DNA of 64,000 nt from Ariolimax columbianus. Its lineage: Eukaryota; Mollusca; Gastropoda; Stylommatophora; Arionidae. Below the pieces are notes generated by a model. It had not been told where the DNA came from, ran no database searches, and saw nothing but the letters and a program-made list of their open reading frames with translations. The position numbers and the translations under genes were made by a program. Below, in pieces: positions 1,442 to 63,599 of this stretch (positions within the stretch are counted from its first letter, which is position 1; the number at the start of each line of letters is the position of its first letter). Location: NCBI GenBank assembly GCA_036924085.1, contig JAVGWX010000013.1, forward strand, positions 60,790,390 through 60,854,389, in the 5' to 3' direction.

Positions 1442-4146
1442 CTGTTTGTTAAAGGCAAAATATAAAAAATAAGGAGTAACTTGAACAACAAAACTTGGCT
1501 TTTGTAACATATTTATCACCATTGAGTAGCGAGTGGCCTAGGGGTTATAATAGATCATACAGGTAAGGTGAGTGAGCAAGTTCAGGTAGAAGTGAAAAAG
1601 GCAAATACAATGTTAGGTATGATAAAAAGAAATATTAAACATAAGAGCAAGGAAGTGATCGTCAAACTGTATAAAGCATTAGTTAGACCTAGATTGAAGT
1701 ACTGCATACAGGTGTGGAGTCCTTATCATAGAGGAGATATAAACATGCTGGAAAGAATAAAAAATAAGAGCGACAAAGCTGATAGTGGGATTCCAGAATT
1801 ACAGTTATGAGGAAAGATTCAGAAAAACCGGCCTACAGTGTCTAGAAAAGAGAAGAATTCGAGGTGACTTAATACAGGTTTATAAGATGATCAGAGGAAC
1901 GGATAAATTAGACTAAAACAAGTTTTTCAAAATACAACCACCCACAAGAACAAGAGGGCATAGCTACAAATTAACTAATGAAAAGTTCAGATTAGATATT
2001 TCAAAATATTATTTTAGTCAGAGAATGGTGAATGCATTGCCACAGGAAGTAGTAGAGGCAGGGACAATAAATGCATTTAAGAATAAATTGCATGCGCATA
2101 ACTGCTAGAGCAAGGTAATGTAAATGAAACTGGTTGTGTACAGACTCTGCAGAATCTGGGGTAGTTGTCTCGCCGCCGCGATTCAATCTCAACCAGTGTT
2201 CGTAAAGCGATCTCAGTCCCGTCAGACAGAGCGATAGAGCGGGCTTGCCGAAAACGCTCGCCCGCCTTTCTCCGTATAGGTATCAGGATGCGGTTTGTTG
2301 TGTCGTCGCCTCCGCTGAGGTGCGCTGCTCTGGTCTGTATCGAGAGACTTCAGTGATTTTTCTAAGGCTTATAGCAGAGCTCGACAGTTCGTCTCGCTGG
2401 TGGTCAGACTCTCGCAAAGAGCTTGTGACCGGCAAATGGAAAGCAGGAATACAGCCTGAAGGCCCTGTCCCAGCCCGACCAACCCTCGGGAGAAGGGCAG
2501 GCCGGCAGGCGAAAATTGTCTCCAGTCCCAGTGAAATTCATCGTCGGGGCCGTTTCGATCCGTTCTGCACAGAGCGCTGCCATCCCTCCCCGAGCGAGCC
2601 CGGTCGGTCGGTCGTCTGGTGTGTGTAGAGGCCCCTGTCAGGCGGTCCTAGGTCGACGGACTGAGGCACGGGGGGAAAAACCGTCCGTCAGTTGGTCCCT
2701 GCGGCCGTCCCAGTGAGGCTTTTTACACAACCGTCCTCCGCCGACCGGTGTGTGTGCTTCGTACGTCTCCGACAGATATCTGGTTGATCCTGCCAGTAGT
2801 CATATGCTTGTCTCAAAGATTAAGCCATGCATATCTAAGTTCACACTGTCTCACGGTGAAACCGCGAATGGCTCATTAAATCAGTCGAGGTTCCTTAGAT
2901 GACACGATCCTACTTGGATAACTGTGGCAATTCTAGAGCTAATACATGCTTACCAAGCTCTGACCCTCGCGGAAAGAGCGCTTTTATTAGTTCAAAACCA
3001 ATCGTCGTTTCCCTTCGCGGGGTTGCGGCGTCCCCACTGGTGACTCTGGATAACTTTGTGCTGATCGCATGGCCTCATGTGCCGGCGACGTATCTTTCAA
3101 ATGTCTGCCCTATCAAATGTCGATGGTACGTGACATGCCTACCATGTTTGTAACGGGTAACGGGGAATCAGGGTTCGATTCCGGAGAGGGAGCATGAGAA
3201 ACGGCTACCACATCTAAGGAAGGCAGCAGGCGCGCAACTTACCCACTCCCGGCACGGGGAGGTAGTGACGAAAAATAACAATACGGGACTCTTTCGAGGC
3301 CCCGTAATTGGAATGAGTACACTTTAAACCCTTTAACGAGGATCTATTGGAGGGCAAGTCTGGTGCCAGCAGCCGCGGTCATTCCAGCTCCAATAGCGTA
3401 TATTAAAGTTGTTGCAGTTAAAAAGCTCGTAGTTGGATCTCAGGCGCAGGCGGGCGGTCCGGCTCGCACTGGTTCACTGCCCGTTGTCTCCTGCCCTACC
3501 GTCTGCCGGCTCTCTCCCCCTTCGCTGAGCGTCCTGGGTGGCCGGCGCGTTTACTTTGAAAAAATTAGAGTATTCAAAGCAGGCCTCGGCTGCTTGAATA
3601 ATGGTGCATGGAATAATGGAATAGGACCTCGGTTCTATTCTGTTGGTTTTCGGAACTGGAGGTAATGATGAACAGGGACAAACGGGGGCATTCGTATTGC
3701 GGCATTAGAGGTGAAATTCTTGGATCGCCGAAAGACGAGCTACTGCGAAAGCATTTGTCAATAATGTTTTCATTAATCAAGAACGAAAGTCAGAGGCGCG
3801 AAGACGATCAGATATCGTCGTAGTTCTGACCATAAACGATGCCGACTAGCGATCCGCAGGAGTTGCTTCGATGACTCTGCGGGCAGTTTCCGGGAAACCA
3901 AAGTGTTTAGGTTCCGGGGGAAGTAGGTTGCAAAGCTGAAACTTGAAGGAATTGACAGAAGGGCACCACCAGGAGTGGAGCCTGCGGCTTAATTTGACTC
4001 AACACGGCCAAACACTGAAATGATTGACATGCCGAGAGCACTTTCGTTGGGTCTAATATGGAACGGGTGCTGGAATTTAGACCCTCGAAAATCTGGGGCT
4101 ATCCTCTCGGTAGCTTGACTGTCTCGCATCAAGTGTTCGCTAAAGA

Positions 4147-4177
<31 letters not shown>

Positions 4178-7100
4178 TCTGCGGCTTAATTTGACTCAAC
4201 TCGCCAATACTGTAGAACGACTGACAAATCGAGAGCACTTTCGTTGGGTCTAATAGTGAACGTGTGCTGGTATTAGACTCACGGAAGACAAGTCAGCTCT
4301 TTAACCTTCTAATGAAAGAACGCTACGGAAATCATGTTTAACCCCGCAGAAACCGCAGATTTCAGATACCTGGTCATTGACAAACAAAAGCCCTCTATTA
4401 ATTCGTCTGGTCTAATAGTGAACGGGTGCTGGTAATAGACCATCGGAGGACAGGTCAGTTTTACCCTACTAATGACAGGGCGTTGCTACGGTAATTCTGC
4501 TCAATTCGAGAGAAGCCGCAGACATTTTGGTTCACGTACCAGGCTGATAAGCCAATGGCGCGAGGCTACCATGTGAGGGATTACGGCCGAACGCCTGTAA
4601 GCCGGAATCCCGCCCAAAATATCAGCACCACTGCAATGGGAGGCTTCGACATGGTCGGGACCTGGGGCTCGCGCCTCAGCCCTATCCGGTCGAGCCGCAG
4701 AAAGAGGTCTCTGCCGTCCGCCAGTCAAAGCGGGCGGATAGCTGCTTGATATTCACCCTATACGGCGATGGGGTGCGAAACCACCAACATAAGACTTAGT
4801 TCTTGGTCAGGGTGTCGAAAACAGTAGAGCAGCCACCTCACTGTGAACTGTCGAGACTCAACCAATGACCATGAGATTTGTCCGCACACTAGGCGAACAG
4901 CATCTCCGTGACATTACCAGGCTTGTCCCCTGGTTAAATGCACTTCTGCCTCGATCTGCAGAGTCTTCTAAACCAGTATAAAGACGTTAAGTTATGTTAA
5001 GACAAGTATATATCTGACAACAATCACAAGACAAGTATATATCTGACAACAATCACAAGACAAGTATATATCTGACAACAATCACAAGACAAGTATATAT
5101 CTGACAACAATCACAAGACAAGTATATATCTGACAACAATCACAAGACAAGTATTTATCTGCAAATCCTTGCTTGCAACTTGCTGCCTCAAAGTTTACTT
5201 ATGTTTCCTTCCTTTCAAAGTTCCTTAATTGAAACGGGACTTTACAACAGTGACATCTGGAGAATGTCATAAGTCAAAGACATTCACAACATCGATAGGC
5301 TGGTCATACCAAAAGAAGAAATGACTAGTGGTGGAGTTCCAGAAGTGATTTATAGTAAGTTAGTTATCGGTCCACTTGTACCCTGATCGGTGTTGTGGGG
5401 AGTCTTAGTTGCCTCCCCTGGGTCAGATGTGTTGCGTATGCCGTCACCCGTCACCGGAAAATCGCCTTTACATCGTATATCCACCTTCCCTTCAACTCGC
5501 CCTCTTGTTTGGAAGCCGGATCATTGCACATTGTAAGCTCACAGTGGAAGCTGATCAAGGGACATTCTCATTAACATAACTAAGCCAGCACACCTTCTGT
5601 CTGGACATGTATTCAGCACATTGGATGGTCCGACCCTTTCGCAAATATCCTCGTTCCTCAATCTGTCTTTCCTATATAGTATAGTAGCCCCTTTCAGTCA
5701 TGACTGACTATAAGATGATGTGACTTGGAGTGATAAACAAACAAAAAATATACTTAGCTTTTGTTTTCTTTCTCCCTGCGGAGTTGTCTTTTCACTTCTC
5801 TGTGCTGCAAAAGCTTCTCTTCACCAAGCATGAGATGGCTCTTCAGGGTACATCTCCACTTGGATCGGTCTGCAGCTTCATCCTCCCAGAATGTCAGACT
5901 CATGTCCATGGCCTTCATATCACACTTACACATATCTTTGAACCACAACTGTGGTCGGCTGACTGCTCTTTTGCCATTTGCCAACTGTTCATAGATGATA
6001 TCTTTGGGAATGCAACCAGCTTCAATGTGACAAACATGACCAAGTCATTGTAGTCTTTACTGTCTAAGGAGAGTGTTCATGCTTGGGAGACCGGTGCGAG
6101 AGTGTGACTCTGAATTTTTCACTTTATCTTTCCATGTAATTCCAAGAATGGATCACAGACGCTGTAGATGAAAGGTGTTAAGTCTGTACTCTTGTTTGGC
6201 ATAAGTTGTCCAAGTATCACTGCCATACAGAAGTCTGCTGACGACACATACATTGTACATCATGACCTTGGTTTTAATTGTAAGTTTCTGGTTTTTCGAA
6301 ACACATATTGTGAGGCTTTCCTATAGCACCCAAGCAAAAAAGAAAGGCCTCCCACCCGATGGCAGGACTCACTAGGCATGAACAACAATATTCATGACCT
6401 TATATCGAACATGCTGTTCGTCCACTTGTCAACTCATTTCCGCGACTGTATAGATTGGAAACCCCCTTGTTAAAGAACAAGCCAATTAAGATTAATATTA
6501 TACATACCTTCATCACGAACATCATTGTGCATCAGCTTGATATAATTAGCACCTGCAGGCCTCAAGACACCACTAGCATGACCTTTACCAGAAGACAGGG
6601 AGTCAATACCAGCACCGCTCTCACTGATACAGGTTGAGAAGATGGACTGGAACCATGTCAATGAGTACTGGTACATCACACCCAGATTTGCCAGTTCCGC
6701 AACCACAAAATAAATCACAGAACCTCGCGTCGCCACCTATATTTAAAGTGAAATTGATATGGAAATTTAAAGTGAAATTGATATGGAAATTTAAAGTGAA
6801 ATTGATATGGAAATTTAAAGTGAAATTGATATGGAAATTTAAAGTGAAATTGACATGGAAATTTAAAGTGAAATATATATGGAAATTTAAAGTGAAATTG
6901 ATTTGGAAATTTAAAGTGAAATTGATATGGAAATTTAAAGTGAAATTGATATGGAAATTTAAAGTGAAATTGATATGGAAATTTAAAGTGAAATTGATAT
7001 GGAAATTTAAACCTCATTTTTTTTTTGCAGTTTTCACTGGACAGATACATCTTCCCCCTCCCCTGTTGTTGCATCATATACGAGAATTATAACACAGAAA

Positions 7101-9235
7101 ATAGACATCACAACTACAATTCTACAAACATCATGATAAATGGCCTAAAACTTGACGAGGTTAACTTCTTTAAATATTTAGAGTCCTGCACATTCAGCAA
7201 CGGAAGATCTAATAAAGTAATTAAGGCAAGACTCGTGAGAACTGCAGCTGCCATGTCAAGACTGGATGTGATATGGAAAAGCAACATCAGCACCGCAGTG
7301 AAAGTCAAGTTATATAAATCATTAGTGATGTCTATTCTTGTGTACGGATGTGAGAGCTGGACATTAACTGCTGAAATGGAAAGAAGGATACAGGCTTTTG
7401 AATATAAATGCTACAGGCTAATTTTGCACATCTTTTATGAAGAACCGAAAACAAATGATTATGTGAGAGATAAAATAACTTCCCTGGCAGGTCAACATGA
7501 AATACTTTTGTCAGAAGTAAAACATCGAAAACTTATATGGTTTTGGCATGTAATGAGATATGACTCCATCTAACAAAATAATATTGCAGGAAACAGTTGA
7601 CGGTGGAAGAAACCAAGGAGGACAAATAAAGTTTGGGAGCGATAACATCAAAGAATGGAAAGGACATGATTTGTCCACAATCGTTCATAGGACTGAGGAA
7701 AGAGGACTAAGGTGGACTTTGTGGTTTGATGTTTCCACCATGGCACCCCTGTGACCTTAACGAGTTAAGGGATTATTGTTTATTGTTTTTAGAGTTTCCA
7801 AACTTAGCAGGCTTTTTGGCTTGTGTGAATAGTGGGGTGTGCAATAGATAACCAATGGCATATTATAATAATATCTGGAGGTTTTTCAACAACACAGGCT
7901 CAAAATAATAATACATTTTGGCTCCAGCGTTATGATTCCCGAAGTACGTTATTGATGTGGAAAGAATAGGACTACCACAATCTACTATGTGTGTGACAAA
8001 AGGTGACTAAAGAGAGTTGTGTGTGCGGCTGGCTGCCTCAGCATGTAAAACAAAGTGCTACAGAAAACATGACTACAAGAACATATGTTGGCATGATAAT
8101 GCTAACGTCATTTAAGTGATGTTCTGCTGGCTACACAAAAAATGATGCCTACTACCAGCTGAACAGAAGAGAGTAGGTCGTGGTCTTCAGACTCCGCACA
8201 GGCCACAACAGACTGTAAAGTAAAGTATCCCATAGCATTACTGCAGTAAGGGTGTGAGGTGTTAGCGATCTCGCATTTCAAAGGCTCGGCTATATGAGGG
8301 CGGTAGCCATCTCCTCTGCCTCGCCGCTTTTACTTCCCGGACTGAACCAGTACCCATTTAAGGCTGGGTCGACCCGGGAGCCATTGCGGTCTGAAAAAAA
8401 CATTACTGCCTCAACTGGGGAATGAACCCAGGACCACTCAGATGCGAAGCCAGTGCGCTAACCACTGCGCTACGCGGCTACACAACAGACTGAGGTACCA
8501 TCTATTCAATAAATTGAAGATAGGTGGTACTGACGAATGCACCTGTGGCACAGGGAAAATAACCACTGAACATCTGCTGCAAAATTGCCCGACATACGAG
8601 GACCAAAGAAAGCACATGTGGCCATCACCAGTGGCAACACTAGACAAGCTCTATGGCAGTGTTGACAGCCTCAGGATGACAGCTGCTTTCTTCAAACAAA
8701 TTCAAGTTGACGTCTGACAGCGTACGAAGAAAAAGAAGAAGAAGTGATGGTCGTCCATCACATGTGATGATGACCACTCTCTTTGTTCAGCCGTATGAAT
8801 AGTCTTTTCCCTTGCTGTGTCCACTGAAATGGGTGACATGCTTGGTGATTTTGATTACAGTGAGAAAGAAACTGCACCTTTTGTCAACCTCACTCTCTAA
8901 TCCTCAGTTACCTTTGGTCAGTGGCAAGATTTCATTGAGACGTGTTTCTGTGAACACAAGTGTAAGTCGTTGACTAGTGGCAAGATTTCATTGAGACGTG
9001 TTTCTGTGAACACAAGTGTAAGTCGTTGACTAGTGGCAAGATTTCATTGAGACGTGTTTCTGTGAACACAAGTGTAAGTCGTTGACTAGTGTGAATTCCA
9101 GGAAAATCCGTAGTCTGGCGACATCCATAATAAACTAAAACACCAGAGCAATGCAGACCCGCAGCCAGTACAGCGTCATCTTTGCTGCTCTACCCATTTA
9201 AGTATTACCCACATCACTGCACTCCAGGCAGGCCC

Positions 9236-18200: not shown

Positions 18201-21200
18201 CGCAAAATAAAAACCACAGTGCAACGCACACCGCCTTGGGGATTAGAGAAATAAGGTGAACGGAAGAAAAAAAAAATATACACTTCTACATCCCAGGGTA
18301 GAATATATATATATTGTCCACTGGACAAACTGTGCCCAAGAGAGAACTGACTGGAAACTGTAGAATGTGCAGACAGACTAAGCCTATATACAGTTAAATT
18401 AAGTGCTGCATAACATCAAACAACATCAACTAAGGTAAAAGAAAAATTTTCAGGTAAAAAACAGAAAATGATGCCCTAAAAGAATTTTAGGAGAACTGAG
18501 AAAAAGAATAATCACTACTGATATATGGCCAATGGCACTATATGGGGCTGAAACATGGACTCTAGCAATGAAGGATGAAAAAAGCTTGAAGCATTTGAAA
18601 TGTGTTGCTATCATTCAAAGGAAAGTGTGATTTGGACAGAAAGAAGAACCAATGACAACGCCCACACTGAGGTAGGAACACAACGATAAATTTCATAGTG
18701 ATACAAAAATTAAAATTGAGTTAGTTAGGACACAATATGCAGCATGAAAGTCTTCTACAGAAGATACTAGAGGGCAAGATCTAGGAGGAAAGTAGAAATT
18801 GGTAGCCAAGACTCACCTTTACATCCCAGCCATGCAGGGAAATTAAAGTATGAACATATGCTGAAAAGAAGAGAGCTGCAGGGGATATTGTCAAATAGAG
18901 AGACATCATGTTCAGACAACCTTACAACCAGTCTTAGAACTAACCAATCAGAATATATGGTACAATGGATAGACATACTCAGACAACCTTACAACCAGTC
19001 TTAGAACTAACCAATCAGAATATATGGTACAATGGATAGACATACTCAGACAACCTTACAACCAGTCTTAGAACTAACCAATCAGAATATATGGTACAAT
19101 GGATAGACATACTCAGACAACCTTACAACCAGTCTTAGGACTGATCAACCAGAGGATAGGGTGAAATGGAACATGCTCAGACAACCTTACAACCAGTCTT
19201 AGAACTAACCAATCAGAATATATGGTACAATGGATAGACATACTCAGACAACCTTACAACCAGTCTTAGGACTGATCAACCAGAGGATAGGGTGAAATGG
19301 AACATGCTCAGACAACCTTACAACCAGTCTTAGAACTAACCAATCAGAATATATGGTACAATGGATAGACATACTCAGACAACCTTACAACCAGTCTTAG
19401 GACTGATCAACAAGAGGATATTGATGATGCTTGGAATACCTGAAATTTTTACTGTACTCCACTTCCACATCCCCAATTTTCATGATCTGCTGTCCACCTT
19501 TGATAAAGGTCTCCTGAATCAACACTGGCCTCAATGCTGGGTTCAGCTCCTCTCCTATATCCTGAAACACAAACAAGAGATTGTAGTTTGTCAGATAGCA
19601 TTGTGTGTGGTCTATGTTGAAAAGGAAATATTAGAATCAATAGTTTACAATGTGTAGCGTAACTTAACTTAACATCTTTATACCGGTTTAGAAGACTCTA
19701 CAGAGCCTGTATACAACCAGTTTCTTGGAGGGTGGTTTTTACAGAAGTGTGAGTCCATCTTAATAGTCTCAAACACTAGAGCTAAGTAGATCCGCAGCCA
19801 GTTAGGTACCATCTATAGGTACTCTTAACAAATCACCTGGGGAAAGGTACAAAATAACTTGAGTATATTTTTTTGTTTTTGTTTTGTTTGTTTTTGCGTT
19901 CGCCTTATTTTTCTATTTCCCAAGGCGGTGTACGTTGCACTGTGGTTTTTATTTTGCGCCTATCGGCCCAGTGCATCCGACTTCAGAACGCATTTTTATG
20001 TAAGGGTCTGCTTCCTCCTGCATTTTCTAAGGGTTTGCTTTCCCGGGGTAACGGCCGGTGCTGTGATGGGGATCGAACCCAGCACCTTCGAATTGTGAGC
20101 CGTGCCACTTAACCACTAAGCCACGCCGTCCCCTATTTTTTACATTTAAATTTTGTCCGGGCAGCGGCCGTTAAGCCTACTCTTTTCAATTTCCAACTAC
20201 TAAGGAATTTTTTATGTGCTCAACACTGAACACAGGGATCATGGGAATTTTTACCGTAAGATCCACGTAAAAATAAATTTCAGATCTCCACCGTGATTCG
20301 AAAACACGGCCTCCGGCACTCTAGACCACTGAGTCCCCCTAGTCAACAGTGAGCTGGCTTGCTAAGACTGGGATTATAGTACACTAGAGTTTGAAATCAC
20401 AGATGGATAGAAAAAAATACAGGATTGGTTCATTCCTGGTACGACAACTCCTCCTGTCAACCCAGCTGTAAATTGGTACTTGACATTTGAGTTGGCAAAG
20501 GTATAAACAGCAAAGAAGGAAACTGGCCACCCCATCTCACAAAGGCTGTGGCTAAGAACATGAAGAGTTATCTTAATCCTCGACAGCAATTGTTGACATC
20601 AGAATGACCTTTACTTTTACCTTTCAACAAGCCGCGGCTACACAGCTGAGCAATCTAGGTTCAATCTCCAGTTGACGCAGGATATTTTTTAAAATTGCAA
20701 ATGGTGCCAGGTTGGACTCAGTCAGAAATATTTGGTACTAGAGTTCTTCTTCTTCTTCTCCATTCGTTCTAAATTTGCCGCTACCAAGTCCTGAGCAGGG
20801 CTTTGCAAGTAGCAGGATGTAGTCCAGAGAATGGAATGCTTTGTGTCGCTAGTTTACAGCTTGACTGCGATAATTGCACCTTTCAGTCTAACACATCCGT
20901 CTTCGGCAGGGGTACTCGAGTAATTCTGGGAATGAAAAGGCGGCCTGTGTGATGCTGAGCCGTTGGTGAAATAAAAATATGGGCCTTACACAATATTCTT
21001 CAATGAGCCACATGGCGTGTAAATAGGATCCTTTGTAATTTTGCAAGCATGACTGGTTCTCTGTTAATAGTATTGAGTTTAAGAGCTTGGTTTTCTTCAT
21101 GTTGATATTCAGTGTCCTGCTGAAGTTGGATGTGTCGGACCGAAGGTGCAAATATCACAGTCAAGCTGTAAACTGTGACCCAACACATTCTATTCTCTGG

Positions 21201-24200
21201 ACAACATCGTGCTACTTGAAAAGCATTTTTCAGGGCTTTCTACAAATGAGATTCATAAGAAAATGATTCCTGTTTATGGTGAGAAGTGTTTGTCACAAAA
21301 AGTGATACATAAATGGGTCGAGAAATTTTCTCAAAGACACTCGAAAATTACTGACAAAGCCAGATCTCGTTGTCCTGTTCATATTGCAGGCGAGAAACAA
21401 TAGGGTGTTTGCATGGTTTAGCCTACAACATAATACATGTTCTACTGAATTTCTGGAAAGTGTGCTCACAGTGGGTACAAAGACAACTAACGGATGAACA
21501 CAAAATGAACCAAATGCGTTTGCACTGATAAAACGATGAGGTAAGTGTATCAACGTTGACAGAAACTATGTTGAGAAATAAGGGACAGTGTAAGTACAAT
21601 AATGGGGAAGAAAACTAACGCCTAGTCACGCAAAATATACTGATCAGACATGTTAGTCAGGGCCAGGCAAAACATACTGGCCAAGACCCTCACCTCAGTT
21701 TCCTAGTAGCCCTCCCTGGAAACGGGCTGTTTTCATGGTAGGCTGGCTAACAAGGTTAGGGATCGACATGATCCACGTAGCAGTGAGTGACACGCAGATG
21801 AAGCAAAGCATAGCACAACCGCCTGGAGGAGCTCGGTCCATCTTCAACAGCTTCCTCAGGATGTGAGCAAAGCTACTGCAAACCGCCACTTAATGTCCTT
21901 TCCAGGACGGAAAAAAGAGAAACCTACTCATTGTGGGCATTCGCAAACAACAAGTCCAATAATATATGGTTTCAAGGTGCTGAGCAGTGCATCAGCTGTA
22001 GTGGTTAGTGACCCAAAACTGATTGCTAGGGTCAGTTTGCTAGCCAGCAAACCAGAGCTACCAAGACCCTTCTCTACCTCCATGTAGTGATCCTGGATAA
22101 CAGGCTGTAATGGAGCAAACTGGCTGTGGAGAAGGGATCAAAGAGGGAAGGCGTGCCCAAAACTGCCTGCAGAAGTCAGATGTGTCAGACCAAAAGGTAC
22201 GAATATTGTAGTCAAGCTGTAAACTACAAAATAACACATTCAGTTTTTCTGACAATATCGTGCTACTTGCAAAGCCCTTTTCAGGACTTGGTAGCAGGAA
22301 TTTGAAAACAAACGACAAAGTACAAGGTGTGTTCAAATGAAACATGACCAAACTGCAACAAGTGAACATACGTATGATGCGCATGATGATGTCACTCCTG
22401 ATGTAAACAGCACATACCAACCATCAAGTTTGCAAAATTTAATTATCCTCCGACTCAAAGTTTCTTCAGCAGACCATTGAAAACATGGTGGGTGTGAGAC
22501 AGAATCCGTCCAGAGTTGATCAGCGAGAGGTGATTTCGTTTCTAACAGCTGAAGGATGTCAAACAGTTGACATTCATCGCAGAATACAGGCAGTGTATGG
22601 TGACAAAAGTGTGTTGAAGACAACAGTGAAAAACTGGACAATGATGTTTAAAGAAGGACGTGAGTTAACGAAAGATCTTCCGAGACCAGGATAGGCGCAT
22701 ATTGTTGCGTTAACTCACGTTCTTCTTTAAACATCGTTGTCTCATTTAATATTTTTTCAATAGCCATTTCTTTGTCTTCTTCTTTGGCATTCATTTTGAA
22801 ACGGGCGTAGTGATAGTTTACAGCGAGACTGTAATATCTGCACATTTTGCGGTGACACATCCGACTTCAATGGCTTTATTTGTGTCCCGGGTTTGCCTTC
22901 CCACCGTTATCCATATTCTCTTAGCCAGTTTACACAAGTCGTCCATGAGATCTATAAGGGCGGGAGAAGAATATTTGTAATCATATTTATTTATAACACA
23001 GTTCACATAACAACGCCAAACTTTACCATGAGAAGGCATGGAGCTCCGACTTTGATGGCTGTTTCAACTGTTCGCATCATGTTTGAATCAGTTCCAGCAA
23101 CAATCTTAAGTTGCATACCCTCCATTTCTCGAATCCATCTTTTGGACAGAAAAAAAAAACCCAATAACATTTTGAGAGTAAATCAGGCAGGTATAACTTC
23201 TTCAATGAACTAAAAAATATAAGGTTTGTAAGCCATTCACAGTTAAAATGTATATATTAAAAAAATTTCTTGATTGTGACAGATAAGAATTACTGATATG
23301 TTGTTATGTTGTTGTTGTTGTTGTTATGTTGTTGTTGTTGAATACCAACAATGAGTAAGTTTACTCTTTCGTGTGCATTGAAAAGGGCATTATGTGGCAG
23401 GTTGCAGTAGCTTTCCTCACATCTTGAGCGTGTTGATGAACGTGGATCTGGGTCCTCTAGGCAGTTGTACTATGCTTTGCTTCATCTATGTGTCGCTCAC
23501 TATTATGAGGATCACCTCGATCCCCCACCTCGTTAGCCAGAATGCTAGATAGAACTGTGTAGAAGTGAGGGGGCAGTATATTTTACCAGACCCTGACTAA
23601 CACGTCTGATCAGTAAGTTTTGCCTGGCCAGATGTTAGTCTCCTCTTCCCAATCTTGGAGTTAAAGACAGAATCTCTGGAAGTTTTTGTAATTGTTTGGA
23701 TTAATATCTTTTTTGGTATTATGGCTGTATCAAAGGCAGGATCTATTCTACCTCATTTTACAGAGAGAGGAGACTAACGTCTGGTCCGGCAAAACATACT
23801 GATTGAACAATGTTGGTCAGGCTCAGTTAATGTATACTGATCTAGACCAGTACTTCACTTCCATGCAGTTCTTTCTGAAAATAGGCTGTTTTCACGTCAG
23901 TCTGGCTAATGAGGTGGGGATCAACGTGATCCCTGTAGTAGTGTAGTAGTGAGAAACACGCAGGAAAAACACTACAGACTACAGTCTGGAGAACCCCAGC
24001 CCCCTTTCATCAGCACATTCAGGATGTGAGGAAAACTACTGCAACCCATCACTTAATGCCTTTTTTTAGGGTGCACAAAAGAGTAAAGTTTCTAATTGTT
24101 TACATTATTTTTCTTTGTCATCTTGAATTTGTTCAAAGAAAGCAGTGGTCGACCTGAGTCTGTCGATACTGCCATAAAGCTTGTCTAGTGTTAGCACTGC

Positions 24201-27200
24201 TGATGGCCACATGTGCTTTCTCTGATCCTCGTATGTCGGACAGATGATCAGGGGTAATTTTCCCAGTACCACAGGTGGATTCGTCAGTAGCACCTAGCTT
24301 GGGCATTCAACAATAACAAACATTATTTTACATCACAACAATACAGTTTGAAAACATCAATTTTCAATGCTGGAAAGGTATATACTGAATTCCTGTCAGT
24401 TCCTCAATACCAAAAAAAATTAATTCTTTTTAGCAGTGCAGTATGACTCCTACTATAAAAAAAACAAATACAACAAAAAACTGTCATACGACATTTTACC
24501 CATTGCTGGGGTAGTCGAGGGGTTTTGAAGGCTAAAGACTACAGACCATTTCGCCACTGCTGTCGCCACGTCGTGTACTGGCTATGTTTGTTTATTTTAC
24601 CCCCAACAGAAAAACAAAATATGCCATACAGGGGATTCGAGTCACTGCCCTCCTTGTCGGCAGGCAGGCCTCGAAACCATTCAGCCACAAGCTCCTCTGA
24701 CTCCTACTATACTGACTGAAAAATGTTACATTGCAATTATTTTAACGTTAACGGTGCATGAGCTACATATACTAAAGCACATTAATGTTAATGAATGATG
24801 TAAGGTTTTCTTCCTTCTTCTGAGGAGCAAAAAGTGAAATGAGTAGCCTGCCGATAGAGCGAACACACAAGTCAACCTCACCTCCAAGTGGTGCACACTG
24901 GGAAACTATGGCCGCGAGGCTGTAGGCAAACGAGGCAATGGCTCGCCTGGGGAGATGGGCTCCTCCAGGTCAGATGCAGATGTTGGCCCGCACCGGCTTG
25001 GAGAGGAGATGGGCTCCGCCAAGAGAAAAACCGCCCAAGATTCACACATGAGGACACAACCACAACCAAACATACCGGCTCGGTCGCAGCCTGGGTTAAC
25101 AATGACTGCGCCTGCCGTCCCACACCAGGTTTGAGGCGATAAGTGTGCTACTGGTGGAATCATCAAACTGAGGAAAGACAAGCTCACAATAGGTACGTGG
25201 AATGTTAGAACACTGAACCCATATGGCAAAATCAATGAGCTAACGCACGAGATGGAGAACTACCGGTGAAACATCCTTGGTATATGTGAGGCGCGATGGA
25301 AAAGCTTTGGAGAGTTTACCACGGAGGAGGGCCACAAGTTCTACTTCAGTGGCAGGGAGGACAAACATTTACACGGAGTGGGGATACTGGTGCATAAAGA
25401 CACAGCCAGATGCATATTGGGTTGCCGCCCAATATCTAGCCGCTTTATCATCTTACGGCTAAAGGCAGCATCGTTTAATATTACCATAATATAGTGCTAC
25501 GCACCCATTGCAAAATACGAAGTTTGTGAAATAGAGGCATTCTATGATCAACTTCAAAGTCTGATACACAAAACACCAAAAAAAGACATATTGATAGTCC
25601 AGGGTGATTGGAATGCACAATTTAGAGAAGATGCAGTCCATGACTGGAGGGGAACATGTGGGCCATACGGAAATAAAGAAACCAATGACCGGGGCGTCAG
25701 ACTCCTAGAATTTGCAAGATGCAACCAGCTGTTGGTGGCAAATACGTTTGGGTTAAACAAGCCGTCGAGACGCTGGACATGGCATAACCCAAGCAATGAA
25801 GTGCATAGCCAGATTGACTATATACTGGTCCAGAGGAGGTTGTGATCGAGCATCAACAACGACAAAACAAGAAGTTTTCCCGGAGCTGATATAGGAAGCG
25901 ACCACGATCTGGTTATGATGACCATGTGTCTGCGATTGAAGGGAGTCGCAAAGAAGGATGTGACCAGGCTAAAGTTTGACCTGGACAAACTAATGGACCC
26001 AAAAATCACCAAAGTGTTCCAAGCAAGGGTGGGAGGGAGATTTGCGCCACTACTGGCTCTCAGAGAGGGACTGGATACAGATACAGTTACAGAGTCTCTT
26101 AACGCAGCTCTCATAGATACTGCAACAGAGATCCTGGGGTGCCACCAAACAAAAAAGAAGCCATGGGTGACCAAAGACATTTTAGACCTTTGTGATAAAA
26201 GAAGGTTACTGAAAAAACACAATCACCCACCGGAGGAGGTCGGCAGTTACAAAGAAAAAGGTGCATGGCAGACAATGAAGAGGCCGGCCCAAAAAGAGAT
26301 GGGAGGACAACATAAAAGAATGGACCAGTCTCCGACCAGAAGAGTCACAGGCAGCGGCATCTGACAGAGAGGGATGGCTTGGAATTGTGAGGATGTCTTC
26401 ATGTTACGGTTACGGGATGACCTGATCTGACCTGAAGGTTTTCTGACATGTAAATAGGGGAAGTGAGACGCTAGTCCGGTCAGGCACAACATGCTGACCA
26501 GGATGTTGTGTCAGAGTCAGGCACAACATGCTGACCAGGACATTGTGTAAGAGTCAGGCACAACATGCTGACCAGGACATCGTGTCGGAGTCAGGCAAAA
26601 CATGCTGACCAGGACATCATGTCGGAGTCAGGCACAACATGCTGACCAGGACATTGTGTCGGAGTCAGGCACAACATGCTGACCAGGACGTCGTGTCGGA
26701 GTCAAGCACAACATGCTGACCAGGACATTGTGTCAGAGTCAGGCACAACATGCTGAAAAGGACGTCATGTCAGAGTCAGGCACAACATGCTGACCAGGAC
26801 GTCGTGTCGGAGTCAGGCACAACATGCTGACAGGACATCGAGTCGGAGTCAGGCAAAACATGCTGACCAGGACGTCGTGTCGGAGTCAGGCACAACATGC
26901 TGACCAGGACGTTTTATCAGAGTCAGGCACAACATGCTGACCAGGACGTTTTATCAGAGTCAGGCAAAACATGCTGACCAGGACATTGTGTCAGAGTCAG
27001 GCACAACATGCTGACTAAGATGTTGTGTTAGAGTCAGGCATAACATGGTGACAGGACATCTTGTCGGAGTCAGGCACAACATGCTGACCAGGACATCTTG
27101 TCGGAGTCAGGCACAACGTGCTGACAGGACGTCATGTGAGAGTCACTACCTCTCTTCCATGCAGCATACCCTTAACCTACTCATTGTTAACTTATTCATT

Positions 27201-33200: not shown

Positions 33201-36200
33201 AAACAACCGTCAACATATTTGGCTGTTTCTTGGCAGGTGTATGGTACGGTTAGTTAGTTAATTTTCTTTCCATTTATGCCATCTTGTGTCATTTCCACAG
33301 TGTCTTCTCCAGATGTTTATTGATCTACATCTCTTCCTCTTCCCCTGGGGATTCCATGTCAGGGGCTGCCTGAAAGCTTACCCTAGCATGTGTCCTATCC
33401 AACCCCATTTCCTACATTTCCACTGGCCAGTCTATACCCAATATTCAAAATACAAGCGTGAAATAGTATCATAAAAAAACTGACTGGCACAACATGGGGA
33501 GCAAAGTCCGATGTCCTCAGAACATTATTATTCGCTCTGTGTTTCTCTGTAGCTGAGTACGCTGCACCAGTCTAGAAGAACTCTGCACATGTCAAACATA
33601 TAGATACAGCAATAAATGAGACAGGCCGTATAGTTACTGGATGCCTAAAACCTACACCAACTGAAAGAATATAACCCATAATCGGCATAGCTCCCCCAGA
33701 GATATAAAGAACTGTCGCGTCAGAGATAGAAAGAGAAAAACAGGTAAATGACCCAAGACACTTTATGTTCGAACATCAGGTGCAATGCCCAAGACTAGAG
33801 TCAAGACAAAGTTTCATACAGTCAACCCAGCCACTACATCCTAGTCCAGGAAATTGATGCATTGAAAGTTGGAAACAGCTGACATAGGTCCCCTTGATCA
33901 AGTTACGGGAGGAACCTGCATCTGGACATCTCCTGTCCTACGCAACATAGAAGTCACTAAATAGACTTCAAACTGGTGTATCACGATGCAGGAAAAACCT
34001 GAAAAGATGGGAATACAGGGATGATAAAATATGCGAATGTGGTGTAACACAAATCAGGGACCATTTAATGATCTGCCCAAACCTCCTGGAGACTTGTAGC
34101 ATGGATGACCTGCTGAATGCCAGTGACAAGGCAATCCATGTGGCTGAATACTGGAAGAATGATGTGTGACATAGTGCCTAGGACACGGAAAGTCAAGTAA
34201 AGTACCCAATATCCTCCGTAGATATTTATTTACGATCGATTGAAGTTTCCTCTGTCTTTGTCATTCTCCATGTTTCTGTTCTGTACACAAGTACTCACTT
34301 GACATTAGAAATGCACAATCTTAACTTGGTAAAAAAAAGTAAAGTAAAGTGGAAATTCAGCACAATTAACCGCTGGTTGAAAATGGAGTTTTTGAAGACT
34401 CCATTGAACTAAGCCGCAGCCTGTGAGAGGTGAGGTGGCCAGTGCCCTTCCTTGTTTTTTTTACTTTCCCTAACTCATGTGTCAGGTACTCATTTTACAA
34501 CTGGGTTTACTGGAGAAGCGGTCGCCTATTAAACTCACAAATCTTTGTTTAGAAGACAGCAGAGTTTTCGAAACCAGTATAAAGACGTTAAGTTAAGTTA
34601 AATCATGAACCAGATTTTTTTAGTCTCTGGACGGGATTCGAACCGAGGCACACTATTACCACAGAATAGCTTGATACTAGTCTTTATTTCCTTGGATTTT
34701 CATACATTATTCAGTAATGGGGAGCGCATGGCCGAATGGTTTCAAGGCCTGCCTGTCGACAAGGAGGGCAGCAGTTCAAATACCCGGTATGGTATATGTT
34801 GTTTTTCTGTTGGGGTTGAAATAAACAAACATAGCCAGCACACGACGCGGCGACAGCAGTGGCGAAGCGGTCTGTAGTCCTCAGCCTTCAAAACCCCTTG
34901 ACTACCCGAGCAATGGAAAAAATGTCGTAGGACAGAAAAGAGATTCAGTAATATAAATGATGTCCTTGCCTTTCCAATTCTATCCCTTACGTCTGCCTCT
35001 ATGTCCCCTGAAGTTTCAATGGTGCTCTCCAACTATGTGAAGTTGTCCACCTTTTCTAGTACCTCACTTTCAAACATGATTGGCTCTTTACTTAAGAGAA
35101 GGTGTATCAGCTATGTTACCAACTGCCTGCTGGTCATGCCAAATTCTGCAATGCTCTAAACATGTTATCATTGGAATAGAAAATCCAAGCCCTGGTGAAG
35201 AGGTGTTTCAGAAAGATCCTTGGAATATAACATGGAGATTACATCTCTAATGTCAGTGTATGCAATACTGTCCGACAGTTTATCAGACCTATCTGGACGT
35301 ACTTTCAATTGTCAAATCACGAAGGTTCTGCTGGAATGGCCATGTGATACGTTCTCATGGATCGCCCAATATGATACTCCGAGGCAGAGTTCCTGGCAAG
35401 AGAAGAGGTTTGCTCTAAGATGAACTGGACAGATGATATTTACACGTGGACGAGTGTGACATTAATTGAAACTGCAATGCTCGTAATGTATAGAGTATGA
35501 TGGAGACGGACAGTTCGTGATGTATTAAGTCGTCATGCTTCCAAGACCACCTAGGTTATAGAACAGATCTCTTTATTTTTTTGTCCATGTCCAAGCACCA
35601 TGTTATACGGCATCCATCTAGTATTCAGCGACATGAATTGCCTTGTCATTTGCCTCCAGCATCCCGCACCTATTGCATGTTTCCTGGAGGTTGAGGCAAG
35701 TCATCAGGTGGTCTGGGTACTATATTGCATCATCATCTGTATATACCCATCGTTTTATATTCCTATTGCACTGTGATTCACCAAGTCAGAGTTTATTCAG
35801 CAACTTCCATGTTGTCTATGGAAGATGATGTTTAGGGACAGGCTCCTCCTGAAGTTCCATCTTTGGGGCCTGCATCAATTCAGATGAGACGAGACGAGGC
35901 GAGGTTCAAAACAAAAGTACCATCATAGCAATCCTGTATAAATGTTCTGACAGCAAGATAGCAGCTGATGCTGGTTCTCTTCTATAGATCTGTTCAGAAT
36001 CATGCTGGCTTTCTCTCAACCACAGGAAGTGTATACCATCTAAGTGTTGTTATTCCAGCCAAGGCATATGTTATGAGGTGTGGAACCTACAGAACCTGAT
36101 GCAGATAGACTCTGTGTTGCCCAACGAGCGATGGAGTGAAGAACATAGAAAATCTTCATTCGCAATCAAATCCGCAATGCAGAAAACAGACATCGAACTT

Positions 36201-39200: not shown

Positions 39201-42200
39201 GCCACACCCAGCTTATAGTCTCAATCTGTCACCATGTGACTTTCATTTGTTCGGACCCTTACAAAAATTTCTAAAAGGACAACAATTCAACTCCGATGCA
39301 GAAGTCTTGGCTTCGGTGAGGTAACCAATTGGTTCAATGAGCAACTAAAGTCATTTTTCTCGAACGGCATCCAACTTCTAGACAAAGAATCAAATCCTTC
39401 GAGTCAAAATGTTACAGAAAGGTCCTCAGAATACCCTGGACAGAGAAAAAGACAAATGTAGACATTCTGCAAGAGTTGAGCATAGAGGAGAACTGGTTTA
39501 TCAATTCCATTTTGGCTAGAAAATGCAAATACTTTGGTCACATCGAGAGACACAAAGGTCTTGAGAGAACAATGATGGAAGGTATGGTGCCAGGCAAAAG
39601 AGGAAGGGGTAGACCAAGAAGACGATGGCACCAAGATATCCAGGAATATCCTGGGTATGACTGTAGCGGAGGCTGGAGTTTCGGCAAGGGAAAGAGTTTT
39701 TTTCCAGACAGGCTGTGATGGGAGCAACGTTATATAAAGGACATGCTACATGATGATGGTTTCCAACATCTACTCAAGCAGTGTGATGCGTGTCTAAATA
39801 CCTATGGCAACTTTTTATAACAAACCCCAGTGCATGCTTGCTTCATATCAATTGCTTTATTTAATTCTGCCCAACCTGCTAGTGTTCCTTTCATATGTTT
39901 GTAATAAATCCACCAGATGGGTTTCATTTGAACGCGCCTCATAGGTTACACGTTTAAAGTAGTTTCCAATGTAAACATAAAATAAAAGTTGAATATCATA
40001 CATTTCACTAGCAAAGATAAACACATTTTCATACATTTCACTAGCAAAGATAAACACATTTTCATACATTTCACTAGCAAAGATAAACACATTTTCATAC
40101 ATTTCACTAGCAAAGATAAACACATTTTCATACATTTCACTAGCAAAGATAAACACATTTTCATACATTTCACTAGCAAAGATAAACACATTTTCATACA
40201 TTTCACTAGCAAAGATAAACACATTTTCATACATGACAAAGGCATGAAGATCAGAATACACAAAGCTAGAGCAGCCTTTGTTAGTTTAAATAGCATTTAG
40301 ATCCTTCATTGTACAGTAAGAATGAGAATGCAACCTGACAAACTACCCCTGTGCACCTGTAACGCATGCCGTTCTGGTGGCAGACCAAGAACTAGATGGA
40401 TAGGAAAACTTGCGGATATTCTAAATCATTATGGGATGATGACTAGACTACTTCAACGTCGCGAATGGCCCTGAACAGAAAACTACGGCTCCGCATGACG
40501 CCTCACGGCAGAAGTGGATAAGACAAGACATCGTAAAGTACGAACACCGTTAAAAATCAACACCTTAAGCAAAATGCCAGTCATGCTTGGAGGTGAGGCA
40601 CTGGAAGAAATTGACACCTTCAAATATTTGGAAGTGAGGCACTGGAAGAGGTGGACACCTTCACATATTTGGAGATGAGGCACTGAAAGAGGTGGACATC
40701 TTCACATACTTAGAGGTGAGAAACTGGAAGAGGTGGACACCTTCACATATTTGGAGGTGAGGCACTGGTAGATGTGGACACCTTCACATATTTGGAGGTG
40801 AGGCACTGGAAGAAGTGGACACCTTCACATATTTGGAGGTGAGGCACTGGAAGAGGTGGACACCTTCACATATTTGGAGATGAGGCACTGAAAGAGGTGG
40901 ACATCTTCACATACTTAGAGGTGAGAAACTGGAAGAGGTGGACACCTTCACATATTTGGAGGTGAGGCACTGGTAGATGTGGACACCTTCACATATTTGG
41001 AGGTGAGGCACTGGAAGAAGTGGACACCTTCACATATTTGGAGGTGAGGCACTGGAAGAGGTGGACACCTTCACATATTTGGAGATGAGGCACTGAAAGA
41101 GGTGGACATCTTCACATACTTAGAGGTGAGAAACTGGAAGAGGTGGACACCTTCACATATTTGGAGGTGAGGCACTGGAAGAAGTGGACACCTTCACATA
41201 TTTGGAGTTAAGGCACTAGGAGAGATGGACACCTTCACATATTTGGGCAGTATCATTAATACTTTAGGGGGCATAGAGACAAATGTAAGGTATAGGATTG
41301 GAAAGACAAGAACATATTTCTTGTTACTGAATAATATAAGGAAATACAAGGACATGAAGATTAAGGCAAAGTTAAGGTTGTATTATTCCAATGTCAAGTC
41401 AGTTCTACTGTACAGAGGAGAAACTTGGAGAACTACAAAGGCAATACAGAGGAAACTCCGGTCGTTCGGTAATAAGTGGGTATAATGGGTACTGGCTGAC
41501 AAGACATGGTGAAGAATGAAGACCTACGGGGAAGGAACCAACAACAACCAGTGGAGCAGCCCCTGCTGAAGACGGATGTGTCGGACCGAAAGGTGAAAAT
41601 ATTGCAGTCAAGCTGGAAACTAGCGACACAACGTATCCCGTTCTCCGGACTGCATCATGCTACTTGCAAAGTCCTGTTCAGGGCTTGGTATTGGGAGATT
41701 GAGAACAAACGCGAAAGAAGAAGAAGTGGAGCAACCAATCAAATGTAGGAAATGGGATTGGATAGGACACATGCTAAGGAAAGCACCAAATGTGGCCAGA
41801 CAGCCTCTGACATGGAATCACAGGGAAAAAGGAAAAGAGGTAGACCAAAAAACACCTAGAAAAGAGACTGTAAAAATGAACTTCAGTCCCTGGACCTTAA
41901 CTGGAGAGACGCTGAAAGAGCAGATTAAGATTTCAATTGCTGGAGAACTGTTGCCAATGGTCTGTGCCCTTTACCTTTAATCTGCCATGCATGTCACTAG
42001 AGGTGGCTAAGGAAGGTTGGGCATGGGGCTGGCTAACCAAAGCTGTAGAAACTTGTATCAAATACTTCTTCAACAGATATACACAGGTTAATGCATGATG
42101 ATCTTGCAATGTATTTGTTGTACACCTATACTCCACAGGGAGCTAAACATGTTTTGATTGATTTAAAAAACACTGGCAACCTTTTTTCAAACAATATTTC

Positions 42201-45200
42201 AGAACGTGTGAACAAAACATGTCTGTTTTTACCTTATAGACTGTATTGTAATTATCTATTGCAAGTACCCAGCTGCAGATACACTTGCAGGCTAATGATA
42301 CTTTGCCTACAGACTCTGGGTTGAAGTTTGGATTTTTTGTATATTTCTTGAGTTTGATGTAGACCTGGAAAATAGTGATGGACACAATCAGAAATGAATG
42401 TATACTGCAATTAAGAAATTAGTCATCAACATTTTTCCAGTAGGAGTATGGGACCAGTTGGTCTGCTTGAAGTAAAAATAGTTTCCCACTGCAAGCGAAG
42501 ATGGTGGCAGCATCACACAAGTTGTGTGTCTAGGGGTGTGGCATGCGCTGTACTTGAATTTGAGTGAGGAATAGTTGTGCTGGTCATCAACCTCACTCTC
42601 TCATCCTGAGCTACCTTGGTCCGGTGGCAAGACATAGTCAAGACAACTGGAGATAGCATAGGATGCAGCTTTTACTTCAGGGTTTGGGAAGGAAGACTAA
42701 TGTCTGGTCATACATACACCTCTCTTTTTATGGCAGTCTGGCTAACAAGGTGAGGGGACGTGATCCTCATAGTAGTGAGCAATATGCAGATGAAGCCAAG
42801 CATAGCGCAACCACCTGGAGGACCCCGGTTCACCTTCATCAGTTTACTTGGGATGTCAGGAAAGGTGCAACAAACTGCCACTAAACATCTTTTTTAGGAC
42901 ACACAATGGGTAAATCTACCTATTGGGGGCATTTCTTCAACAAAAAACGACCTCAGGGCTTTCTCCTGAAGTCTTTCCCATGAACAGATAACCGACAAGA
43001 CAGCAAGTCTGTGCCAAAGCATGTCTGTGCTATTTTATTGATGGCTTTAGTAACATTAGTTTGGGCCTGAAGATACTATTCAGTGAATGAGATGACAGAA
43101 ACTCATGGCTGGATGATTCCATCATGGTCAGTGATCCAGAGCTGACCAAGACCCTATTCCGCCTCTAAGCAACGGCCCTGAATTCAGGTTGCCCTAATGT
43201 AGTATGGCTAAGAGAATAGAGATCGCACTGAGAAACCAAACTTGGTACCCACAAAAAATCAGCAAAATCGGATGTGTTGGACAGAAAGGCGCAGATATCA
43301 CAGCTTCAATGTAAATTATGACACAACATTCTTTTCAGTACGAACACAAAAGAAGAAGAATCAAATGCAGGACAAGCCAAGTGGATTGGCTAAGGGTGTC
43401 TATAGCTATTAAACTGCAGGAACCATCAGCATAGTATAACTCCCCTTACGTTGAAAGAGATCAAGCATCATTAGATCTGACTCAGTGTGCAGTAATATCA
43501 GTGCCTATTAGGTAGATAGCTAGACAGCTTAGGCAACAAAGACTTGTCACGCTAACTGTCCATGATCGCAATGAATGGCTGCAACTCTGTGTCTTCATGC
43601 AGTGAGGATGATGTCATTATGAATTGAGTCAGGAGTTGTGGGGACAGCCATAAGGGCGGAACTATGATAGAGAGAGCCATTTGTCATCCTTCAGTCTAAG
43701 ACCTGCATTAAGAGCTGATGGAAAAGGATGTTTAGGCAAGCCCCATGCCTAAATACGGTCAGACAGCTACAGTTTGGCAGGGTGAATAAGCTGTTCAGGC
43801 CTGTCTATCGGGGGATTTGGTAGTTTGAGACCTAGTCGTATCAGTCAATTGCAACAATGCATCTCAGGCAGAGCATGGGGAAGACTCTAATGTGCTTATG
43901 ATTCTTTTGCAGAATAGTTCAAGTTTGGGACTGACACAAGTTCTATACTTACTATCTTAACTAAACTGAATTTGAGCTTACTTTGTCTGGTTGTCTGTTC
44001 TTGTCATAGTTGAGTAATAGCTTCAGGAACTGTGGATCACCCAGGAACAACTTGCCTGTTGCCCAGTCTGTCTTCTTTTGAAAGAGCACACACACAGCAG
44101 CAACCACAGTAGCCACTAACTGAGGTGGGTTTGTATACACTCTTAAACAAACAAAGAAACGAAATAATGTTTACAGGAAATGACACTTAATAGTCCCACA
44201 CTAGAGATTTTTAATAAAATTCATTTTCTTTGTGTTGACGATAAGGTCAAAGTTAGTGCATAGAATTGAAAACTCATCCATGTCCAGCTCTAAGCATGTG
44301 TTAATGATGTAGTCATCAGCAAAGAGGTGATCTAAGGTGGTTGCTTTTTTCACCTTTGTGAGGGACTTTAGGTACCTCAGATTGAACAGCTGCACATCCA
44401 CCTTGTATCTGATATACATGTCAGTGTTACAACAATGTATATCATCAGAAAGCATGGCAGTAAATACCAAGAGGGCATAGCTACAAATTAACTAAAGAGA
44501 GGTTCAGATGAGATATTAGGAAATATTTTTTAGTCAGAGAATGCATTGCCACAGGAAGTAGCGGAGGCAAGGACAATTAATGCATTTAAAAATACATTTG
44601 ATTTGCATAGCTTTTAGAGCAAGGAAATGTAAATGAAACTGGTTGTATACAGACTCTGCAGTCTTCTAAACCAGTGTAAAGACGTTAAGTTAAGTTAAGT
44701 TAAGTCAATGAAACTGCTTGTATACAGATACCGCAGTCTTCTAAACCAGTACAAAGACGTTAAGTTAAGTTATGATAAAGTATGTTGGGGCCAGCACACA
44801 GCCCTGTTTCTTCATCGATGTTGCTTCCTGAGAGCTGTTTGATCTCAACAGCCTGGCATACAGCATCACACAACGTGCTCACATTGCTGAGAGGAGAATC
44901 ATTACTGAGGTGCAGAAACAGCGAGCTGTACGAAAGGGCAGAAGGCAAGACAGCACAATTACTAGCGCTGTCTATGGGTGGCCCAGGTGCGGTAGAGTTT
45001 TGTCATGCTCAGATAAGCCTGCACATTCATAGGCAATCATTTCTGAATGTACATGCCTGGCACTGTCATAACTTTCGCTTGTGATGTGCAACTGTTCATA
45101 TTATTATCATTATTATTATCAAAAGGCACAGATATCCCAGCGTCCTTTACAAAACAAACACAGAAGAAGAGGAAGACAAAGAAAAATAAGAAAAAGAAGA

Positions 45201-63190: not shown

Positions 63191-63599
63191 TCAACAGGGG
63201 AAATCAGTGGTCTAGAGGTAAGGTGTCCGCCTCGGGTGCCGGATGTCGCGGGTTAGAATCACATGGATCTTCTGGTAAAAATTCCCCTGATCTTTGGGTA
63301 GTGAGATTGGACTCTCATGTTCAGTGTTGTAAAAAAATGTCTTCGCAGTTGGAAATCGAAAAGAGTGGGCTTAACGACAAAATTCAAGTTAAAAATGTAC
63401 CCAAGTTATGTGTACCTTTCTCCAGGTGGATTGTTAAGAACAGCTATAGATGGTGTCTAACTAGATGCAGGTCTACTTAGCTCTAGTGTTTGAGTCTATT
63501 AAGATAGACTTACACATTGGTTAAACCACCCTCCAATGAACTGGTTGTATACAGACCCTGCAGTCTTCTAAACCAGTATAAACATTAACTTAAGTTAAA
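63190..63599 (+). mobile_element. SINE-B, full length
   Basis: tRNA-like head GTGGTCTAGAGGTAAGGTGT with B box CGGGTTAGAATCAC; body GATCTTTGGGTAGTGAGATT, AAGAGTGGGCTTAACGACAA, AACAGCTATAGATGGTGTCT and GTTTGAGTCTATTAAGATAG; 3' end AACTGGTTGTATACAGACCC, CAGTCTTCTAAACCAGTATA and a short TTAAG tail. The last 65 bp are the CR1-T 3' terminus. Confidence 0.92.

Follow-up and report, generated by a model that had tools for sequence, protein, structure and literature searches.

A 64,000-nucleotide stretch of the Ariolimax columbianus genome, called the window here, contains a block of ribosomal-like sequence inside the tail of a LINE, within an intron of a dynein gene, and the question it raises is how such a block came to be there. 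The interrupted gene is DNAH6-like and lies on the minus strand, in keeping with the sequence-only reading, which had recognized a dynein gene; the exon at ~6473-6736 matches DNAH6 among other dyneins, and another exon was read by eye at ~1182-1448. That reading also described two fitting halves of a LINE tail around the block, and these are confirmed. The left half (1501..2145, plus strand) is the 3' part of a different LINE, comprising its ORF end and tail, and the right half (4963..5164, plus strand) is the remainder of that tail with a 29 bp tandem repeat. The tail can be taken as continuous before insertion because two paralogs elsewhere in the window extend over the point where the halves meet, one at 60497-61015 on the minus strand (84% over 531 bp) and a second at 44468-44699 (85% over 240 bp). 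A direct repeat at both junctions was correctly noticed, but its length was given as 7 bp; it is the 8 bp TCTGCAGA, present identically as the left (2146..2153) and right (4955..4962) target-site duplication on the plus strand, since other copies place the 5' end of the element, ATCTGGGG, at 2154. The target had further been described as a perfect palindrome, AGACTCTGCAGAGTCT, which has no intact occurrence anywhere in the window; the tail paralogs contain only near-palindromes.

Window positions 2154-4954 belong to a LINE family interspersed in the genome, as a copy truncated at its 3' end, and are not a one-off capture of ribosomal DNA. The sequence-only reading had proposed looking for further copies in the same assembly, and rather than none, at least 39 others were found, 90-96% identical, among the 40 that were scored of 10,940 candidates (the window being one of these). 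Sequence was fetched for 39 other copies, which sit on contigs of 62-180 Mb and have differing flanks. In 31 of them the BLAST match starts at the same base, window 2154, and all except L045, which has ETS-like and 18S sequence only, carry 18S-like sequence together with later parts of the element (38 of 39). Two copies read end to end put the full length at ~7.1-7.2 kb, with a 2.8 kb rDNA-like 5' region, a linker, a single endonuclease-RT-RNase H frame and a (GAA)n tail. Profile matches in L017/L048 were to Exo_endo_phos_2 (9.5e-19), RVT_1 (5.5e-39) and, behind the RT, RNase_H (6.3e-8). A relative of 1282 aa matches at 69%, the names of some relatives point to Arion, Batillaria and Littorina as sources, and P0001 can be aligned over the length of both complete copies. 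These names fit a gastropod or other mollusc as host; octopus was rejected, as the 18S primers quoted in PMC9115989 do not agree with the majority sequence of the copies. In neither complete copy is the frame intact, and in the copies read the sequence that separates the ORF from the rDNA-like part shows short frames only.

Target duplications were tested in the 20 copies whose tail end lay within the fetched DNA, and 18 have one of at least 10 bp (observed 12-24 bp, one mismatch allowed), compared with 1 of 380 mismatched pairs in the control. The other two, L029 and L046, have none, and the duplications of L042 and L043 are ambiguous because of local repeats around them. Read by eye, the duplication of L017 is ~55 bp; L012, read after the 20-copy test, has none. 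With an endonuclease, an RT, target duplications and a fixed 3' tail, the family is an APE-type LINE (non-LTR retrotransposon). It also includes a short class that retains the 5' region and tail and has no ORF, equivalent to L017 1-3317 plus 7177-7209 with an additional 28S-like repeat. Our assignment gives 18 long copies, counting the window copy (no ORF) and L026 (most of the ORF missing), and 18 short ones, counting L020 and L043, which carry other deletions; L045 falls in neither class.

The window copy, on the plus strand, begins with the family 5' end ATCTGGGGTAGTTGTCTCGCC and a part (2154..2779) that we call ETS-like from its place before the 18S. The near-canonical 18S-like part (2780..4009) gives a eukaryotic SSU rRNA match in cmscan at 2780-3916, plus strand (model 4-1116 of 1831, 920 bits), and can be followed by eye to ~4009 in a 40-row alignment. 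Diverged 18S/28S-like modules (4010..4476; repeats 3946-4077/4143-4274 and 4043/4240/4402) recur 197 and 162 bp apart, followed by a diverged 28S 3'-end-like part (4477..4879) with an LSU rRNA match over the same interval and strand (model 3005-3399 of 3401, 105.7 bits, rounded to 106). The LSU match is likewise weak (70-118 bits) in the six other copies scanned, of the 39, and in these the rRNA matches are confined to the element. The last part (4880..4954) is post-28S sequence that corresponds to the first linker bases before the ORF of longer copies, matching L017 to ~2832, and the copy ends at 4954 with neither tail nor ORF. The SSU and LSU matches are the only Rfam matches in the window; an R2-like HDV ribozyme at the 5' end was considered and rejected, as Rfam yields nothing at E 5 or below for 2100-2790 in the window copy. 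Of the chimera described earlier, the 18S and 28S 3'-end components hold, and the ETS label depends on position; the statement that everything between 18S and 28S is omitted does not, as there is no clean join and the repeated modules lie between. The LINE 5' region is a cut-down rRNA transcription unit, with a putative ETS, 18S to ~base 1180, the modules and the 28S 3' end.

We consider it probable that the block is a 3'-truncated LINE copy inserted by target-primed reverse transcription, with a 5' rRNA-derived region renewed from the host. A LINE RNA would have been inserted into the tail of a different LINE in the dynein intron, and priming inside the RNA probably left this copy without ORF and tail, since TCT is common to target and RNA. 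Insertion by this route and a new non-autonomous rDNA-derived element were among the origins proposed earlier; insertion of an rDNA-derived mobile element is supported by the common 5' end, the target duplications and the dispersed copies, whereas the block is no stand-alone rDNA element but the retained front of a LINE that encodes endonuclease, RT and RNase H. The weak link of the whole explanation is the repeated renewal of the ETS-like and 18S segment. At many retrotranspositions the RT might jump to host pre-rRNA within the 18S, copying what lies between the Pol I start and 18S ~1180, a route that we favor tentatively. With a similar reserve, the family may be seen as a dispersed LINE that has no lasting 5' end of its own and takes its first 1.8 kb, from Pol I start to 18S ~1180, anew from pre-rRNA, in which case the fixed 5' end would be the pre-rRNA start.

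The case for renewal comes from how variants are distributed among 37 copies (36 of the 39 fetched copies and the window, leaving out the 5'-truncated L025, L029 and L046). Alleles common to at least four copies occur at 3 of 965 18S sites versus 61 of 640 ETS-like sites, with the kinship of copies ignored in this and the next two counts. At 114 18S sites the copies differ from L049, an 18S of animal type carried by a bacterial MAG, which came from the contig scan and served as a distant reference that is presumably functional. None of these sites has an allele common to at least four copies, where the ETS-like rate predicts ~11 (p 4.7e-5), and at a threshold of three copies the counts are 3/114 versus 88/640 (p 0.00025). 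Private mutations are nearly equal in frequency, at 11-12 per kb per copy in the 18S and 14-17 in the ETS-like part, and we read the near-absence of shared 18S alleles despite these common private mutations as a sign of renewal from host rRNA or rDNA. Inherited variants set in directly after 18S ~1180 (by eye, in the 40-row alignment), which also counts for renewal, as do ETS-like types that cross the classes, one group with support 1.000 containing seven long-class and five short-class copies; a repeated origin of the short class, a possibility here, would make this last point weaker.

Pairwise distances were compared in the nine long copies that are colinear throughout the sequence read, only L017 and L012 being read past the endonuclease. 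Those of the 28S-like part, linker and ORF agree strongly (r 0.82-0.95) and the ETS-like and 28S-like distances only weakly (r 0.31, p 0.083), again as renewal would have it. The uncoupling is only partial, because ETS-like distances still correlate with the ORF (r 0.51, p 0.007), as do 18S distances (r 0.51, p 0.047), and this counts against renewal; ETS-like and linker distances correlate as well (r 0.52, p 0.008). Apart from the window's own match, identity does not rise above 96% in the 40 that were scored of 10,940 candidates, and these therefore include no clear host donor and no evident source copy residing in rDNA. The missing duplication of L012 and the lack of an intact frame in either complete copy also weigh against the preferred explanation.

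The main rival to renewal is purifying selection. The rDNA-like 5' region would have been captured once and inherited vertically, with the 18S maintained as a functional part, for instance as a promoter or as a ribosome-binding or nucleolar-targeting RNA. The joint inheritance of 28S-like part, linker and ORF fits this, as do the correlations of ETS-like and 18S distances with the ORF. The 18S sites that are conserved in an animal-type 18S carry somewhat fewer private mutations (0.52 versus 0.77 per site), and where a 62 nt stretch of 18S recurs further inside the element it is fairly conserved too, which renewal alone does not predict; both count against renewal. This inner control is not decisive, with a second allele in at least four copies at 5/62 columns (31 copies) versus 2/62 in the first copy of the stretch (38 copies). 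Selection is harder to reconcile with the complete lack of shared alleles at the 114 sites, with a 28S-like part that drifts freely and with ETS types that cross the classes, and we regard it as rather unlikely.

Renewal could also take place without template switching, if source LINEs lay inside 18S genes, at an R-element-like site near ~1180, and the dispersed copies were read-through transcripts initiated at the rRNA promoter. This version of the preferred explanation would account for the common 5' end and for the abrupt change, at a single position, between frozen sequence and sequence that drifts; no rDNA-resident copy is present among the 40 candidates scored, and we judge it unlikely. 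As origins of the block's make-up, a single capture of extrachromosomal or other rDNA at a break in a hairpin-prone LINE tail, as the sequence-only reading had suggested from the rDNA composition and a target that is in fact near-palindromic, and a chimera of the assembly are both very unlikely, the former given at least 39 copies elsewhere with a common 5' end and target duplications, the latter given a family on contigs of such length, with differing flanks and duplications in 18/20.

The 5' regions of LINEs turn over fast, and their source is an old question. Here such a region is built from an rRNA transcription unit, with an 18S part frozen amid drifting surroundings. If renewal is true, the family would document template switching onto rRNA as it happens in nature, dispersed elements would have a means to retain a fixed 5' start, and individual copies would be snapshots of the host ETS; under template switching, part of a selfish element would evolve in step with host ribosomal RNA. 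In such genomes, 18S primers and rRNA masks may catch mobile elements.

The single frame for endonuclease, RT and RNase H suggests a likeness to I-superfamily LINEs such as Nimb/Nimbus and Ingi; the family here differs in its rDNA-like 2.8 kb 5' region and, in the copies read, shows no ORF1. Nimb and Ingi are reported in molluscs in the parts seen of PMC10294476 and PMC11203168. Keeping the LINE 5' end and 3' tail, lacking the coding part and having its own target duplications, the short class is a set of SIDEs, like the short internally deleted R2 and R2/R1 elements in the portion consulted of PMC3414825, although it is far longer than those, contains 18S and 28S sequence and, judging by the differing flanks of the copies fetched, has no single rDNA site. 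It is not a SINE, as its copies are mostly 3.2-3.6 kb and have an 18S/28S-like head rather than a Pol III small-RNA head. R7 and R8 are rDNA-specific LINEs, alongside R1 and R2. Those elements sit at one rDNA site, whereas the flanks of the 39 fetched copies differ; a likeness would hold with source copies located inside 18S genes.

SINE28 is derived from 28S. As far as the excerpts of PMC3576234 and PMC10886601 go, SINE28 and the 5S-derived SINE3 likewise combine a retroelement with rRNA-derived sequence, and both are short and noncoding, unlike a LINE of ~7 kb. The sections seen of PMC13174262, which also name a 28S SINE, describe 18 loci of LINE-1/28S rRNA chimeras, in which segments 50-482 nt long were joined by ligation or template switch. 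There too the rRNA lies 5' of the LINE and mostly shares its orientation, but the family found here differs in that it propagates and has a fixed 5' end. An rRNA pseudogene moved by a LINE was rejected, since 38 of the 39 other copies join 18S-like sequence to later element parts and the longer ones have an endonuclease. In the literature searched, mostly without subscription papers, no LINE with a 5' region built from 18S/28S was found. Viral contigs gave no match in pattern scans, nor a relative in a protein search with nine stretches, and phages gave no match; among plasmids, two rRNA-like records matched. The window itself also holds two further pieces of the same or a close LINE, a separate 3' end on the plus strand at 8127..8744 (8127-8215 and 8481-8744; 86-88% to L017 6865-7204) and a 3'-part fragment on the minus strand at 24127..24300 (82% to L017 6978-7161).

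The block in the window is a member of a dispersed repeat family. An rRNA model scan matched the small-subunit rRNA at window positions 2780-3916 and the 3′ end of the large-subunit rRNA at 4477-4879, both on the plus strand, bearing out the 18S and 28S-end make-up given for the block (2146-4961) by the sequence-only reading, and the block's GC and CpG content is far higher than that of the flanking DNA. The left and right flanks are one LINE tail, and the earlier claim that its halves fit together agrees with paralogs in the same window, which are contiguous across the junction. The placement of the block in a dynein intron also held, the host gene being DNAH6-like and on the minus strand, and a direct repeat does lie at both junctions, with a length of 8 bp (TCTGCAGA) rather than the 7 bp first described.

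Searching the 2.29 Gb A. columbianus assembly with the block, as had been suggested, and scoring the best 40 of 10,940 first-look candidates, we recovered the window itself and at least 39 other copies, 90-96% identical, whose flanking DNA differs from copy to copy by eye. The match starts at window base 2154, the family's 5′ end, in 31 of the 39, a biased sample because the match ranking prefers full-length copies. Later element parts follow the 18S-like part in 38 of the 39; the exception, L045 (C20:58223386), ends at about 18S base 1130 with no LINE part, another 3′-truncated copy like that of the window. Its insertion site is repetitive and TG-rich. Four copies (L037, L038, L039, and L047) lack one 18S/28S module, the join falling in or near a 62 nt 18S stretch that is itself repeated; this points to jumps or slippage from one module to another.

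The family is a LINE. In longer copies, an endonuclease follows the block after roughly 500 bp, with reverse transcriptase and RNase H further downstream in L017/L048. Taken together, L017 and L048 make up a complete copy of some 7.2 kb that ends in a (GAA)n tail and, by eye, has a target duplication of about 55 bp. L012 together with L050 also spans the 5′ end to the tail, with no target duplication seen, and the reading frames of both complete copies are broken. A 69% match was found to a 1282 aa database protein with endonuclease, reverse transcriptase, and RNase H domains, and weaker relatives are named from Arion, Batillaria, and Littorina. A second, short class keeps 3.3 kb from the 5′ end and 33 bp from the 3′ end; it lacks the whole ORF and carries an extra 28S-like repeat. 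Duplications of at least 10 bp, one mismatch allowed, lie beside the tail in 18 of 20 tailed copies, against 1 of 380 mismatched control pairs.

The window copy corresponds to bases 1 to about 2832 of the complete element and goes no further; it has no tail, and its 8 bp duplication is shorter than the 12-24 bp of others. At the stop point, the related copy L010 reads CGATCTC, so TCT is common to element and target, and for this reason internal priming on the RNA would be the simplest account of how the window copy ended.

Rates of change vary by part. On average, pairs drawn from nine long copies differ by 2.4-3.6% across the 18S part (601-1800), compared with 5.5-11% for the ETS-like part, 7-12% for 1801-2800, and 4-6% for the ORF. 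Each copy has 12.5 singletons per kb in 18S and 13-27 elsewhere, while variants common to at least two copies number 7.1 per kb in 18S versus 48-127 elsewhere. Across 37 copies, alleles present in at least four occur at 3 of 965 18S sites versus 61 of 640 ETS-like sites, and those in at least three at 17 versus 88. Over a longer 18S stretch (1.16 kb), six sites have alleles in at least four copies, four of them CpG transitions. None of the 114 18S sites unlike L049, an animal-type 18S, has an allele in at least four copies, and three have one in at least three. The 18S of each copy thus decays after insertion, while its source has stayed nearly unchanged, even at positions that are variable among 18S genes. 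On visual inspection, the frozen part stops sharply after CTCAACACG, at about 18S base 1180. In the ORF, 23 of 40 variants common to copies fall at third codon positions, with singletons doing so less (44 of 104), a pattern expected of a selected lineage that leaves dead copies.

Coupling between the parts of the element is incomplete. Distances in the 28S-like part, linker, and ORF closely agree (r 0.82-0.95); those in the ETS-like part correlate with the 28S-like part at r 0.31 (p 0.083), the linker at 0.52, and the ORF at 0.51, and 18S with the ORF at 0.51 (p 0.047). A single ETS group (support 1.000) holds seven long-class and five short-class copies. From one class to the other, ETS distances average 0.088, intermediate to the within-class means (0.082 and 0.093). 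The short class may have arisen repeatedly, which would weaken the mixing of ETS types across classes. Part-by-part trees conflict for copies L012 and L013.

Renewal from the host would account jointly for the 18S freeze, the mixing, and the fixed 5′ end. Template switching onto pre-rRNA within 18S is a serious candidate for such renewal, if somewhat short of probable. Vertical descent with selection on 18S is doubtful, accounting for the freeze only if almost every 18S site matters, variable helices too. Source copies residing inside 18S genes would be a second, less likely route to renewal. Among the 40 scored matches, only the window exceeds 96% identity, mild evidence against the assembly containing an obvious donor. 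As an internal control, the second, inner copy of the 62 nt 18S stretch has a second allele in at least four copies at 5 of 62 columns (31 copies), versus 2 of 62 (38 copies) for the first copy; the inner stretch is fairly conserved too, which renewal on its own would not predict.

In the parts of the literature searched, including portions of PMC9115989, PMC10886601, PMC13174262, PMC3576234, PMC10294476, PMC3414825, and PMC11203168, we found no LINE with a 5′ region built from 18S and 28S. A 5.8S model exceeded the family cut-off at all 40 scored places (the best 40 of 53,434 first-look candidates), and these at least 40 places are spread over 19 large contigs of the assembly; the same model matched in nine of 14 control genomes, five above the cut-off. 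It gave no match in the six element copies scanned (of 39), so the genome may hold further rDNA-derived repeats or many rRNA pseudogenes. Although binned in a Rhodospirillales MAG, the contig L049 (PIVK01000085.1) consists of animal-type rDNA, with a 4.3 kb spacer and the first half of 18S, and is therefore probably contamination.

Elsewhere in the window, the target LINE's tail lies behind sequence unlike its coding part at 19660-19697, 34556-34601, 45513-45724, and 63535-63601; these may be SINEs with the same 3′ end. At 44632-44772, a LINE tail stands directly before another, diverged copy of itself. Tandem repeats in the window fill 41 overlapping rows, with many minisatellites in the DNAH6-like gene, such as those at 61016-61768 and 40587-41246.
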